DNA of 64,000 bases. Origin: Flavobacteriales bacterium (GTDB lineage Bacteria > Bacteroidota > Bacteroidia > Flavobacteriales_F > PHOS-HE28). The translations under genes were made by a program, and so were the position numbers. Each line of letters begins with the position of its first letter. The stretch's first letter is position 1. Where the stretch lies: positions 372,001-436,000 of the forward strand of contig JAHBUK010000003.1 of the NCBI GenBank assembly GCA_019638115.1, given 5' to 3'. The notes beneath the pieces were generated by a model that saw only the letters and a program-made list of their open reading frames with translations, had not been told where the DNA came from and made no database searches. Shown here piece by piece: positions 20,724-28,939 of this stretch.

Positions 20724-20979
20724 ACTCAATCCTCCGCCGCGCTCCCATCCCCGCACATGCGCACGATCTTCGGCGTGAACGATCCGATCACTTCGATCAA
20801 TTCGCGCTGGCTGGCCATTACGGTGTTGATGTCCTTGTAGGCCATGGGCGCTTCGTCGATGCCGCCACCGATGAGCTCGATGCCGTGCTGCTCCAAGTGC
20901 TTCTTCACTACGGAAGGGCTGATGGTCTCCTTCGCCTTGGTACGGCTCATCAAACGACCCGCGCCGTGGCTGGCCGATG
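20724..20979 (-). pseudogene. rtcB': Detached 3' fragment of rtcB (direct repeat copy A)
   Basis: These 256 bp match 24808-25063 without gaps and with six differences, all at third codon positions and all synonymous. The fragment encodes the last 85 residues of RtcB and ends at the same stop codon. It lacks the catalytic part, so it should be inactive even if translated from the in-frame TTG at 20986. It marks the left border of the inserted cassette. Confidence 0.9.
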
Positions 20980-20991
20980 AGGACAATGAGC

Positions 20992-21710
20992 CTACCGCTG
21001 TGCCCCGTGCTTCCGCAGGCGGAATACCCGATGAACATGCTGGTTCAGATCGACACAGAGCAATTTCCCGTCAAGTGATCCACCACGGCCGAGCAACACC
21101 TTCAATGCTTCATTGGCCTGCATACCGCCCAGTACCATGGCGGTGGACGGCATGATTCCTGCCTCCTCGCAATTCATCACCGCATCGGCGTAGTACGCTT
21201 CCAGATCGAATGCGTCGCTCAGGCTGAAGCAGTGGTGGTGGTGCAGCACGGTAAGGTAGCCTACCCATTCGCGCACGGCCGCGAAAACCAATGGAACACC
21301 AGCACTCCCGCATGCCTTATCGATCGCGATTCGGGCCTCAAGGTTGTCGGTGCAATCACAAACGATATCGTGGCGATCGACCAGGTCCTTTTCGGCTCCC
21401 GTGAACCTCTTCGTGATCGCTCGCAGACGCACTTCCGGGTTCTGAGTGGCCAATCGCGAGGAAAGGACCGCAGCCTTGGACATCCCGACATCAGTGGGGA
21501 AGTAATGGAACTGCCGGTGCAGATTGGAGTGTTCCACGAGGTCCCCATCAACGATCGTGATGTTGCCGACGCCCGTGGCGGCAAGCAGTGTGGCAACAGG
21601 CGTGCCCAAGCCACCAGCACCGATGATCAGTGCCCTGCCCTTGCTCAGACGCGCTTGGGATCCAGCACCGAATCCCTCCACAATGACCTGCTTCGCGTAG
21701 CGTGAAAGGT

Positions 21711-24807: not shown

Positions 24808-25063
24808 ACTCAATCCTCCGCAGCGCTCCCATCCCCGCACATGCGCACGATCTTCGGTGTGAAGGAACCGATCACTTCGATCAATTCGCGCTGGCTGGCC
24901 ATCACGGTGTTGATGTCCTTGTAGGCCATGGGCGCTTCGTCGATGCCGCCACCGATTAGCTCGATGCCGTGCTGCTCCAAGTGCTTCTTCACTACGGAAG
25001 GGCTGATGGTCTCCTTCGCCTTGGTACGGCTCATCAAACGACCCGCGCCGTGGCTGGCCGATG
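24808..25063. repeat. Direct repeat copy B (3' end of intact rtcB)
   Basis: The partner of 20724-20979, 250 of 256 positions identical and collinear. The start-to-start distance of 4084 bp defines the inserted unit. Confidence 0.95.
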
Positions 25064-26225
25064 CGATGCTCTCCGTAACGCCGGTGCCGCGCACGATGTA
25101 GCCGGGTGCCGTCATGCTGCCGGGGATCACGCCGAGCACGCCCTTGCCTGCGGGAGTTGCGCCCTTGCGATGCACGATCACTTCCTTGCCTTCATGCACT
25201 TCCTTCCACGCGAAATTGTGGTGGTTCTCCACCATGGCAGCAGGCTTCTCGCCCAAGGCCTTCGCGATGCGTGCATGGATGTGATGATGACATGCTGAAG
25301 CGAAGTCGCCCGCGAGGTTCATGGCCAGCCAGTACTCCATGCCTTCGGCGCTATCGAGCGAGAGCCACGCGAGGTTCTGCGCCTCTGCGGGCAATTTGCA
25401 GAGCTCCTTCGCCACGCGCGTGTAGTGCGCAGCGATGCCTGCACCCAAGCCACGTGATCCGCTGTGCGAGAGCAGCGCGAGGTACTTGCCCGGTGCGAGT
25501 CCGAATTCGTTTTTCGCATCGGTGATCTCGGCCACACCGAATTCCACGAAGTGGTTGCCGCTGCCGCTTGAACCGATCTGGCGCCAAGCGCGGTCCTTCA
25601 GCTGCTTCACCACGGGGATGGTGTCGAACTCCGCGCGCTCCAGCACGGCATCGCCCATGGGCTTCTCGTGTACGGCACGGCCGAAGCGCGTGTGTTCCAC
25701 GAGCAGGCGCTTGTGGTCCTCGCGGTGCGTGGCCAGCACTTCAGGCGCGATGTGGAACACGCTGAGGCACATGCGGCAGCCGATGTCCACGCCCACGCCG
25801 TAGGGGATCACCGCGTTCTCCACGGCGAGCACGCCACCAATGGGCAGGCCGTAGCCTTGGTGCGCATCGGGCATGAGGGCACCGGCCACCGTCACGGGAA
25901 GCTTCATGGCGATCTCCATTTGGTGGATGGCTCCTTGCTCGATGTGCTCGTTGCCGAAAGCACGATAGTCTTTCCGCGCCACTAACTCGTGCATCGCTTC
26001 AGATTTCCGGTCGCGACCGGTGAGTGCGTCGGCGATGGGCGCATAGTGCTCGTGCTCTGCGAATGCAGCCGGATCCGCTGCGATACGGGCCAACTCAGCG
26101 AGCACCTCTTCCTTGTTCGTCTTGCGGTGATGCTTCAGCATCACGTTGATGGCAATGCCGATCGCGCGTCCTTCCGGGAATCCGAGGGCGATCAAGTCCT
26201 TACCGCGTAGTTTCAAGCCTTTCAT
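24810..26225 (-). CDS. rtcB: RtcB-family RNA ligase
   Basis: A 471-residue protein that joins 2',3'-cyclic phosphate or 3'-phosphate and 5'-OH RNA ends using GTP and metal ions, in tRNA repair or RNA stress. Family motifs are in place: GVDIGCRMCLS (metal Cys), GSGNHFVEFG, LSHSGSRGLG, ENHHNFAW, HRKGATPAGKG and the terminal MCGDGSAAED, whose preceding His/Gly region carries the guanylylation site. ATG 26225 starts the conserved MKGLKLRGKDL sequence; a start 12 codons upstream is less likely. The gene is complete although a cassette abuts its 3' end. It is divergent from a small membrane protein gene with a 36-bp gap. Confidence 0.93.
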   Translation of the reverse strand: MKGLKLRGKDLIALGFPEGRAIGIAINVMLKHHRKTNKEEVLAELARIAADPAAFAEHEHYAPIADALTGRDRKSEAMHELVARKDYRAFGNEHIEQGAIHQMEIAMKLPVTVAGALMPDAHQGYGLPIGGVLAVENAVIPYGVGVDIGCRMCLSVFHIAPEVLATHREDHKRLLVEHTRFGRAVHEKPMGDAVLERAEFDTIPVVKQLKDRAWRQIGSSGSGNHFVEFGVAEITDAKNEFGLAPGKYLALLSHSGSRGLGAGIAAHYTRVAKELCKLPAEAQNLAWLSLDSAEGMEYWLAMNLAGDFASACHHHIHARIAKALGEKPAAMVENHHNFAWKEVHEGKEVIVHRKGATPAGKGVLGVIPGSMTAPGYIVRGTGVTESIASASHGAGRLMSRTKAKETISPSVVKKHLEQHGIELIGGGIDEAPMAYKDINTVMASQRELIEVIGSFTPKIVRMCGDGSAAED

Positions 26226-26261
26226 GTTCAGTAATATTGGGAGTTCATTGGCACTGTTCAC

Positions 26262-26636: not shown

Positions 26637-26646
26637 AAGAGCACTG

Positions 26647-26717
26647 TGGAAGAGGATGGGATCGAACCATCACCTGCCGGGCTTCAACCGGCCGCTCTAC
26701 CCGAGAGCTGCTCTTCC
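26647..26717 (-). tRNA. tRNA-Phe (GAA), slightly irregular
   Basis: A 71-nt cloverleaf: acceptor GGAAGAG/CTCTTCC perfect, D stem GCTC/GAGC, anticodon stem GCCGG/CCGGC with loop TTGAAGC (anticodon GAA), T arm GATGG-TTCGATC-CCATC, discriminator A, no encoded CCA. Position 8 is C instead of U and the D loop is short and lacks A14. Confidence 0.75.
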
Positions 26718-26806: not shown

Positions 26807-26808
26807 CG

Positions 26809-26880
26809 CGGTGCTGGCGAGGATCGAACTCGCGACATCCCGATAGACAGTCGGGCATTCTACCACTGAACTACAGCACC
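26809..26880 (-). tRNA. tRNA-Asp (GTC)
   Basis: A 72-nt cloverleaf: acceptor GGTGCTG/CAGCACC, U8-A9, D stem GTTC/GAAT, anticodon stem CCCGA/TCGGG with loop CTGTCTA (anticodon GTC), T arm GCGAG-TTCGATC-CTCGC, discriminator G as expected for Asp. Position 37 is T, where a purine is normal. Confidence 0.8.
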
Positions 26881-27047: not shown

Positions 27048-28154
27048 CTACGGCGCCTTACCCGGAGAGAAGATCTCCTTCAATTGGTCGAGCACCTTGG
27101 CGTTGCCGCTGATGGAGAGCGTGTTCACCTTCTCGGCGATCTTCTCCACGTACTCCATCTCCTTCAGCTTGAAGAGCATGGCGTTGTCCTCCATCAGCTT
27201 CGCGGTGTTCAGCAGGCTGCGCGTGCTTGCCGTTTCCTCGCGACGCATGATGGTGTTCGCTTCCGCCTTCTTCTGCGCGATCAGCACCTGGTTCATGATC
27301 TCCTTCATGTCGCCAGGAAGGATGATGTCCTTGATGCCGTTGTACTTGATCGCCACACCGATGGCCTCGGCCTTCTCCTTCACGGTGGCGTCCACGTAGG
27401 CCGTCACCTCCTCCTTGTTGCCGAGGATCTCGTCCAGCGTCTTCGTACCGATGAACTCACGCAGGGCCAGCTGCACGGTCACATACAACTGCTTCTCGAA
27501 GTCCTTGGTCTCCAACAGGGCCTTGCGGATGTCGGTTACGCGGTACTGCGTGTTGAAGTTGATGCGCAGCGCGGCCTTGTCCTTGGTGAGGATGTCCTGG
27601 CCGTTCACTTCCAATTGGAGCAAACGCAGGTCGGCCTTCAGCACTTGGATCACGGTGCTGTTCTTCGCGTAGAAGTACACACCGGGCTGCAGCAAGGCCT
27701 TGGCTTCACCATCCACCATCAGGATGCCCTGCTCGTGCGGGTCCACGCTGTACACGCGGATGTACGGCAGCAGCGCGGGCTTCATCAGCAGGTCGCGGTC
27801 GATCTCTTTGTTGATCTCGATCTCGCCGAGGTCCATCGTGATGAACTTCAGCTCGATCAAGCCCTTGAAGAAGGCGTAGCGACCGGGCTTCAGCACCTCC
27901 TGGAAGTTGCCGTTGCGGTACTTCAGCACAAGCTGGTTGTCAGCCACCTCCACGATGGTGAGCAGGGCCGCCAGCTCCGCATCGCGCAGGAGCAGCTCCA
28001 GTGCGATGGGCGCGTTGAAGGGCACCGCCATGTCGTAGACCTTCACCTCGTCGAAGGGGCTGACGAAATGCTGGCCGGGTTTCAATACACGGCGGTAGTC
28101 GCCGTTGCGGAAGACGAGGCCGAGCTTGCCTTCCTGGATACGTTGGGTCATCAT
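27048..28154 (-). CDS. Slipin-like SPFH/band-7 protein
   Basis: A 368-residue protein. Its N-terminal 150 residues contain two copies of an LVFRNGDYRRVLKPGQH / LVLKYRNGNFQEVLKPGRY motif, typical of bacterial slipins of the Bacteroidota. An SPFH domain follows (about 150-300), with VYSVDPHEQGILMVDGEA and IRVTD-type strands, then a helical C-terminus with KKAEANTIMRREETASTR. Such proteins oligomerise on membranes and act as scaffolds. A clear N-terminal membrane helix is absent. No operon partner is seen. A second ATG one codon later is equally possible. Confidence 0.8.
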   Translation of the reverse strand: MMTQRIQEGKLGLVFRNGDYRRVLKPGQHFVSPFDEVKVYDMAVPFNAPIALELLLRDAELAALLTIVEVADNQLVLKYRNGNFQEVLKPGRYAFFKGLIELKFITMDLGEIEINKEIDRDLLMKPALLPYIRVYSVDPHEQGILMVDGEAKALLQPGVYFYAKNSTVIQVLKADLRLLQLEVNGQDILTKDKAALRINFNTQYRVTDIRKALLETKDFEKQLYVTVQLALREFIGTKTLDEILGNKEEVTAYVDATVKEKAEAIGVAIKYNGIKDIILPGDMKEIMNQVLIAQKKAEANTIMRREETASTRSLLNTAKLMEDNAMLFKLKEMEYVEKIAEKVNTLSISGNAKVLDQLKEIFSPGKAP

Positions 28155-28558
28155 GGTACTTCAGGTGTTGGCCAGCGCTTCGCGGTACCGCGCGAGACGT
28201 TGGTGAATTGTGGTGCCGCTTCCGGTGGGCACCGTTGACCGGGTATGTGGTGAGCACATCCAGGAGCATTGTCCGGGTTCGCTCTTGATCAGCAAGAGAA
28301 AGCGATGAGGACCCACCACCCGCGTTCGGCGGGGATCAGGGTGCAGGGCCTTGGCCTTTCGTTGACCGATCACTCTGGGGCATCATCGCCATTGCACATG
28401 TAGTGCGGTGGTCCCGATGCGTTCGGGTGAAGGGTGTTCGTGGGCCGCAGCCGTGCAGTGCGTGATCCGCAGGACGGACGCCGGTCGTTCTGCGCACTCG
28501 AGGGCAGCGCGCATTACCGGTGGATCCAACATCGCTTTCAGGGATGGACATTTGATAG
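28155..28558. other. Gene-free interval upstream of the slipin gene
   Basis: No open frame with protein-like composition and no structured RNA was recognised. A CTCGAG site is at 28497-28502. The interval probably holds the slipin promoter, but no clear TAnnTTTG box was found. Confidence 0.5.
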
Positions 28559-28686
28559 GGGAGTGTCCGACTCCCACCTTCTGGATTTGCAGTCCAGTGA
28601 ACCACCTTTCGGTGTTGCTTGGTGCTCTTACCACCTGAGCTACATCGTTCGAGACGATGGCAGGATTCGAACCTGCGACATCCAAA
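28559..28686 (-). other. Rearranged tRNA-like locus
   Basis: On the minus strand a tRNA 3' half comes first (28686-28654: TTTGG, ATGTC, GCAGG-TTCGAAT-CCTGC, CATCGT). After 5 nt a 5' half follows (28648-28618: ACGATG, TA, GCTC, AGGTGGTAA, GAGC, A, CCAAG). The halves fit one cloverleaf: 6-bp acceptor ACGATG/CATCGT and anticodon stem CCAAG/TTTGG with one G-U pair. Next come a CACC-GAAA-GGTG hairpin (28614-28603), a Cys-type anticodon arm CTGGA-CTGCAAA-TCCAG (28597-28581, GCA) and a hairpin GGGAG-TCGGACA-CTCCC (28575-28559). No canonical full tRNA can be drawn. Confidence 0.5.
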
Positions 28687-28893
28687 GGAGAGGAAACGGA
28701 ACGACCGTGCGGCGGCATACCGCGGGCGAGGCGCTGCGGTACCATGGGGCGATAAAAACCCTCATCTGGTCCGACACGTGCGGCCTTTCCTCGTGCTTGC
28801 CCTTTCGAGCAAGATGTTTTGTGCTGAAAGCACAGTATGTAAAGAACGTCTTTGTATCGGGTGAAAGGCTCAATTCTTCCGGCACCATCAGGA

Positions 28894-28939
28894 GATCCCC
28901 GCCACGCTGTTGCCAGCGTGTGCAGCCAGTGCGGGGATC
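28894..28939. repeat. Nested perfect hairpin
   Basis: The outer stem GATCCCCGC (28894-28902) pairs with GCGGGGATC (28931-28939). The inner stem-loop CACGCTG-TTGC-CAGCGTG (28903-28920) stacks directly on it. Its function is unknown. It lies 46 bp beyond the terminator of the small gene at 29035. Confidence 0.6.

Follow-up and report, generated by a model that had tools for sequence, protein, structure and literature searches.

The bacterial Y RNA YrlA (Rfam RF02553) carries a T arm, an acceptor hairpin and a D arm in permuted order, with an outer stem replacing the anticodon stem, and in Salmonella it is encoded in the rsr-yrlBA-rtcBA operon. This operon is induced by damaged (cut) tRNAs, and the authors of that work suggested that the tRNA-like domain of YrlA may competitively inhibit the anticodon nuclease; Salmonella YrlA is not cleaved by its nuclease, and what tRNA-like Y RNAs do in rtcB operons was outside the scope of that study (PMC7790460). 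Algae and archaea have circularly permuted tRNA genes, in which the 3' half also comes before the 5' half; these genes mature to working tRNAs (PMC3978253, PMC3218864). In the yjdF riboswitch, a mimic of the tRNA elbow precedes a coding gene, and such tRNA-like leaders raise translation 2- to 6.3-fold (PMC9142559). In Anabaena, a silent 26-tRNA operon, rtcB and a slipin are controlled together by the repressor TrcR (PMC10272220).

Here we analyse a 64,000-nucleotide stretch of a Flavobacteriales genome (hereinafter, the window), whose minus strand encodes a conserved noncoding RNA containing a circularly permuted tRNA fold (module 1; Table 1). The RNA resembles YrlA in the permuted order of its arms, in its rtcB operon setting and in that a few RNA-bearing genomes have Ro60 in the same gene cluster. 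It differs from YrlA in that it usually has two modules, a changing anticodon on an arm, a pseudoknot, and 5' and 3' domains of its own; moreover, its constant neighbour is slipin, its RF02553 score is below threshold, and Ro60 is missing in 26 of 30 genomes. Unlike the permuted genes of algae and archaea, module 1 has a closed hairpin as acceptor, lacks an anticodon and is part of a larger RNA. The yjdF leader, in contrast, is unpermuted, lies beside the ribosome-binding site, and has neither a changing anticodon nor a repair operon. The TrcR regulon likewise places a tRNA array, RtcB and slipin under one stress regulator, but its loci are scattered, and we found no tRNA-mimic RNA described in the available part of that report.

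A structured RNA with a permuted tRNA module

The RNA is 550–619 nt long in eight same-genus relatives. Its consensus structure, computed with RNAalifold on nine sequences (alignment A2), contains 152 pairs, 40 of which show compensatory changes. The 5' domain contains a core hairpin that takes the form CC[AT]GATGnGnGTTTC..GCnCCATAGT[AG] across Bacteroidota, with a covarying stem. A protein-coding reading of the conserved stretch was rejected because many of the indels between conserved blocks are not multiples of three. Judged by its sequence, the RNA behaves as a structured RNA, not as a gene for a protein. No curated Rfam family covers the whole RNA, the only convincing overlaps being partial tRNA and YrlA matches. 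We found no published description of it; an earlier mention in Burroughs and Aravind 2016 or Chen et al. 2014 is possible. An apparent remnant of a tRNA of Leu-CAG or Met-CAT type lies at ~28850-28895 on the minus strand of the window, and in six of the eight relatives (L027-L032) the corresponding tRNA is intact and directly precedes the RNA.

Table 1. Features of the RNA and its operon in the window (positions from the first nucleotide of the window)
Feature	Position	Strand	Basis or remark
Whole conserved noncoding RNA, ~555 nt	28293..28847	-	9-sequence alignment A2 and RNAalifold
5' domain: two hairpins and GAGGAAAG...GTTCCTC domain	28690..28847	-	Covariance models R1/R2
Core hairpin GGACCAGATGAGGG...CGCCCCATGGTA	28740..28772	-	Present in distant loci
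Module 1, circularly permuted tRNA fold: T arm, acceptor hairpin, D arm, outer 'anticodon' stem	28618..28686	-	
Outer strand TTTGG	28686-28682	-	
Linker ATGTC, 5 nt, variable-loop-like	Between outer strand and T arm	-	
T arm GCAGG-TTCGAAT-CCTGC	28676-28660	-	
Acceptor hairpin CATCGT-CTCGA-ACGATG	28643..28659	-	Couples 3' and 5' acceptor strands
Acceptor 3' strand CATCGT	28659-28654	-	5-nt loop CTCGA next
Acceptor 5' strand ACGATG	28648-28643	-	TA next
D arm GCTC-AGGTGGTAA-GAGC	28640-28624	-	One base next
Second outer strand CCAAG	28622-28618	-	
Mini-hairpin CACC-GAAA-GGTG	28603..28614	-	Occupies place of module 2 T/acceptor/D arms
Anticodon arm CTGGA-CTGCAAA-TCCAG, Cys-type	28581..28597	-	Anticodon GCA at 28590-28588
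H-type pseudoknot GGGAG-TCGGACA-CTCCC, A-rich linker	28546..28575	-	TGTCC pairs with loop GGACA
3' domain, closed by GAAAGCGATG/CATCGCTTTC	28298..28539	-	RNAalifold on A2
Slipin (SPFH/Band 7)	27048..28154	-	Pfam PF01145, E 2.4e-32; synteny
tRNA-Asp(GTC), operon array	26808..26880	-	ARAGORN, Rfam
tRNA-Phe(GAA), operon array, diverged from housekeeping tRNA-Phe	26646..26717	-	ARAGORN, Rfam
RtcB RNA ligase	24810..26261	-	Pfam PF01139, E 6.3e-81

Module 1 has no anticodon loop. An earlier note on this DNA had described a tRNA 3' half lying five bases before its own 5' half, acceptor strands pairing over 6 bp, and outer ends forming a 5-bp anticodon-type stem. All three features were recovered: the two halves are separated by the 5-nt acceptor loop, the acceptor has six pairs, and the outer stem has 5 bp including one G-U pair. 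The T loop and D loop are of the normal tRNA type. ARAGORN detects no ordinary tRNA at this site. Rfam matches module 1 to YrlA with 41.1 bits (E 7.4e-7), short of the gathering score of 69, as is the best RF02553 score among relatives (46.6 bits); in addition, a weak tRNA match covers the Cys-type arm. Because the RF02553 model also matches ordinary tRNAs that lie in tandem in E. coli and B. subtilis, this match is insufficient as sole proof of a permuted fold. Module 1 differs from tandem tRNAs in that its two acceptor strands pair together.

Covariation supports the fold of module 1

Module sequences were chosen by their T arm and acceptor hairpin, so the pairing of these two elements is partly a selection effect; the outer stem played no part in the choice. 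The module search was positive in 53 of 58 homologous loci and in 27 of 1160 shuffles, and 17 of the 19 module 1 pairs show compensatory changes. Acceptor strands pair with their own partner over a mean of 6.1 bp. Specifically, at least 5 bp form in 51 of 51 module 1 acceptors with their own strands, compared with 14% when strands are swapped between species (8% for module 2 with swapped partners). The outer stem lies in the tRNA register, with a 5-nt variable loop and one base at position 26; at least four of its five pairs form in 35 of 51 sequences, compared with 29% after swapping, and all five pairs covary.

De novo RNAalifold prediction on 37 mostly distant module 1 sequences returned the permuted tRNA fold. 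In the module 1 alignment, 95.6% of cells are paired (74.0% shuffled), and the covariation is 0.620, compared with 0.220 for shuffled alignments (0 of 500 shuffles reach the observed value) and 0.08–0.16 for slid ones. Because outer-stem covariation and unguided RNAalifold agree, module 1 is predicted to be a tRNA with an opened anticodon loop and a closed acceptor end. The acceptor strands, which usually form 5-7 clean bp, are closed by a hairpin in all modules found; in module 1 the loop is ~3-16 nt long. With its acceptor ends tied in this way, folded module 1 would have no free, chargeable CCA end.

The earlier note had also considered the locus as the wreck of a tandem tRNA pair. Tandem tRNAs do mimic the order of the halves and trigger RF02553, which speaks for decayed tandem tRNAs or a chance arrangement. 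However, the acceptor hairpin is rebuilt with different sequences, by compensatory changes, in nearly every species, the fold is conserved over many families with compensatory changes throughout, and a comparison of relatives for an intact tandem ancestor found two normal tRNAs at this place in none of them. The covariation refutes this reading, to which we give next to no probability. The permuted order is likewise not due to chance, since the Rfam YrlA order, the module search against shuffles and the strong covariation all point to its conservation.

An arm with a variable anticodon beside a pseudoknot

The Cys-type anticodon arm that the earlier note saw adjoining the permuted halves is part of the same RNA. 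What that note suggested might be a mosaic is a second tRNA-like module (module 2); this module is a full permuted tRNA with an anticodon arm in relatives and is reduced in the window and in a second genome (G065). Specifically, five same-genus relatives have two permuted modules with the anticodon arm in the second, and L027-L031, L033 and L034 have a module 2 with complete T, acceptor and D arms. In the window and in G065, module 1 and the anticodon arm are present, and the module 2 T and D arms are reduced to the mini-hairpin. In two other relatives, G064 and G060, there is a single permuted tRNA, complete with its anticodon arm.

The module of G064 and G060, which contains every arm of one tRNA in permuted order, and the RtcB gene alongside would fit a true circularly permuted tRNA gene, in which the acceptor loop would be cleaved and RtcB would join the ends at the variable loop. 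We consider this very improbable, because the acceptor usually has just its 5-7 clean pairs and is closed by a hairpin, module 1 lacks an anticodon, module 2 decays freely but keeps its anticodon arm, and an ordinary tRNA-Cys encoded in the window's genome already serves the GCA anticodon. The earlier proposal of a permuted gene giving an ordinary tRNA was not upheld: module 1 lacks an anticodon loop, has its acceptor tied as a hairpin and is embedded in a larger RNA.

The anticodon arm is followed by an H-type pseudoknot with an A-rich linker, whose topology we take to resemble that of the preQ1-I riboswitch. Across loci the pattern is GAAG...CTTC, an A-rich linker, and a tail complementary to the loop; loop and tail vary by species yet remain complementary (score 12.6, compared with 7.1 for shuffles). 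In most loci 4-11 nt separate the anticodon arm and the pseudoknot, even where module 2 has lost its T and D arms.

Within the genus, the stem of the anticodon arm and U33 are invariant, and the anticodons are GCA, GCA, GAT, TGT, GTT, GTT, TCG and GAG (Cys, Ile, Thr, Asn, Arg and Leu), leaving out G023, which has a one-base deletion in the arm. The diversity of the anticodon triplet in the genus is 0.65, compared with a mean of 0.225, and just 1.9% of the triplets of the RNA are as diverse. All loci together give 49 anticodons of 14 isotypes, in a list partly read by eye. In the raw count, Ala, Gly and Val are absent from these 49; of the tRNAs in the linked arrays, only 11 of 234 belong to the same three isotypes. 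A few anticodons look unnatural (AAA, ATT and ATC), and U33 is missing in a few loops (L121, L127 and L137).

No offset was enriched when the anticodon loop was searched for complementarity to fixed positions within the RNA or around the slipin start, and inspection by eye revealed no consistent pattern in which the RNA anticodon is the isotype missing from the linked array. The possibility that the arm was copied from a real tRNA was rejected: the genome's tRNA-Cys shares the loop, and its stem differs.

Linkage to slipin and RNA-repair genes

The 5' stretch of the RNA is found at 79-100% identity in 9 of 45 genus genomes, the window's own counted. At all nine loci slipin follows the RNA, and then, where the contig permits, come tRNA genes (2-10) and RtcB. 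Among the 45 genomes, eight have both the RNA and RtcB and 34 have neither; the contig with the ninth RNA locus, in G065, stops before rtcB would be reached. Ten of the 45 encode RtcB, and in two of these, G018 and G033, neither slipin nor the RNA lies beside it.

Searching 395 genomes of the class with R1, a covariance model of the 5' domain, yielded four matches in other families; each lies just upstream of slipin and has modules that are permuted or reduced. A second model, R2, yielded three further loci, again adjacent to slipin; thus, all seven genome-wide matches outside the genus adjoin slipin. In the reverse direction, R1 matched 44 of 80 slipin loci of the genome collection, always on the slipin strand and ~0.5-0.9 kb upstream. 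Four more of these loci have the core motif, and at least 27 of the remaining 32 have T-arm/acceptor-hairpin modules upstream. Permuted tRNA modules are present in ~70 of 80 slipin loci. By this sequence survey, the RNA is widespread across Bacteroidota upstream of slipin. It is an accessory element, because ~1-2% of sampled species match, a lower bound under strict filters. Viral contigs and phage records contained no relative of the slipin that would indicate phage carriage.

Single examples come from beyond the Bacteroidota. Citrobacter has rtcR-slipin-nucleotidyltransferase, with a T arm and hairpin in the rtcR/slipin gap, and in a Clostridia record (L183) slipin-rtcB is preceded by a permuted module. 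The tRNA-like elements of Burkholderia and Photobacterium are in normal order. The Burkholderia element (L185, 2654-2726, plus strand), upstream of slipin-rtcB, has a GAAA tetraloop replacing the anticodon loop.

In the window the operon order is RNA, slipin, tRNA array, RtcB, with the RNA directly upstream of slipin. The loci of relatives have the composition of an RtcB RNA-repair operon, namely RtcB with further repair genes and regulators: tRNA arrays, Thg1, RlaP, and a WYL-WCX regulator on the opposite strand. At two loci (L065 1315-3048 and L068 1824-3584, minus strand), the WYL-WCX regulator is fused to a PhyH dioxygenase domain and lies on the strand opposite the operon. The tRNA arrays have up to 20 genes; L102, L077 and L136 are slipin loci with 15-20 extra tRNA genes, and the Ala, Val, Thr and Gly isotypes are rare in arrays of this type.

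The tRNA genes of the window's operon have features of their own. The tRNA-Phe has the anticodon arm GCCGG-TTGAAGC-CCGGC, compared with ATGGA-TTGAAAA-TCCAT in the housekeeping tRNA-Phe, and is possibly a damage-resistant spare. The tRNA-Asp is the sole tRNA-Asp among the ~35 of 40 assembly tRNAs that were decoded, with copies possibly missing from the assembly; the remaining assembly tRNAs are unlikely to be tRNA-Asp because they are 82-90 nt long. Downstream, a second RtcB C-terminus (20729-21022, minus strand; 98 aa, 90% identical) lies just past a DUF4132 gene, an arrangement expected if insertion of a 172-aa ORF plus the DUF4132 gene (24832-21711) had duplicated the end of rtcB.

The YrlA match of module 1, with the same permuted order in an rtcB operon, raises the reading of the RNA as a YrlA-type Y RNA, a scaffold or gate for Ro60/Rsr, another RNA-binding protein or an exonuclease, whose mimic would recruit tRNA-binding enzymes. 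TROVE (Ro60) is encoded within the same gene cluster in G084, L065, L087 and L077, which parallels the rsr-Y RNA-rtcB arrangement of Salmonella (PMC7790460). However, 26 of 30 RNA-bearing genomes, including that of the window, have no TROVE match, and the YrlA model contains nothing equivalent to the anticodon arm, the pseudoknot or the 5' domain. We consider this reading unlikely and do not file the RNA as a Y RNA, because the Rfam cut-off is missed and Ro60 is usually absent.

The position of the RNA suggests another reading, namely that it is a cis-acting, long 5' leader controlling slipin-rtcB expression, either through ribosome binding as in the tRNA-like yjdF leader or through refolding upon cutting or binding of the anticodon arm. 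The RNA is strictly on the same strand upstream of slipin at every locus found, terminator-like sites lie between the two in only 6 of 58 loci, and tRNA-like leaders are known to boost translation, as cited above. In contrast, hundreds of bases separate the tRNA-like part from the slipin start, whereas the yjdF T-loop can pair with the Shine-Dalgarno sequence; a ribosome-binding role leaves the switching anticodon unexplained; and tRNA genes lie upstream in many loci, which places the RNA mid-operon. A leader function is therefore somewhat unlikely, although less so than a Y RNA scaffold.

Discussion

We rank a bait or sensor function first, a cis-acting leader second and a Y RNA scaffold third. 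The leading explanation, held tentatively at somewhat below even probability, is that this RNA of a tRNA-repair operon is a non-chargeable tRNA mimic, which acts as a bait for anticodon-cutting nucleases or as a sensor of them. Sequence comparison establishes the predicted structure, the operon linkage, the conserved closed acceptor end and the variable anticodon in a fixed frame; expression, nuclease binding or cutting, RtcB repair and benefit to the cell are steps that we infer.

Specifically, nucleases that attack tRNAs in the anticodon loop would encounter in the RNA a tRNA elbow together with an exchangeable anticodon loop. The RNA would act as bait for these nucleases and possibly as a sensor, its cutting being registered by the operon. 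RtcB would reseal cut RNAs, and the spare tRNAs of the array would refill the pool. The anticodon would switch between species because the attacking nucleases differ. The species-variable anticodon suggests a bait or sensor for tRNA-cutting enzymes, and the induction of the Salmonella operon by damaged tRNAs, with the competitive inhibition suggested for YrlA, speaks for this reading (PMC7790460). The unnatural anticodons, the loops without U33 and the resistance of Salmonella YrlA to its nuclease count against a bait, and the same-strand position before slipin everywhere counts against a purely trans-acting bait, which would need no such linkage. Bait and leader are compatible, since a leader with an arm that is cut could be a sensor.

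The loci form a natural series, widespread and mostly without Ro60, in which the tRNA mimic persists and anticodon identity changes in a fixed frame, and the existence of this series makes the bait or sensor idea directly testable. One RNA ties together slipins, RtcB and extra tRNA arrays. It is conceivable, at about one chance in three, that it represents a new bacterial RNA class: a non-chargeable permuted tRNA mimic with an exchangeable anticodon, which would act as bait and damage sensor and is encoded with a ligase and spare tRNAs in Bacteroidota and perhaps in other phyla.
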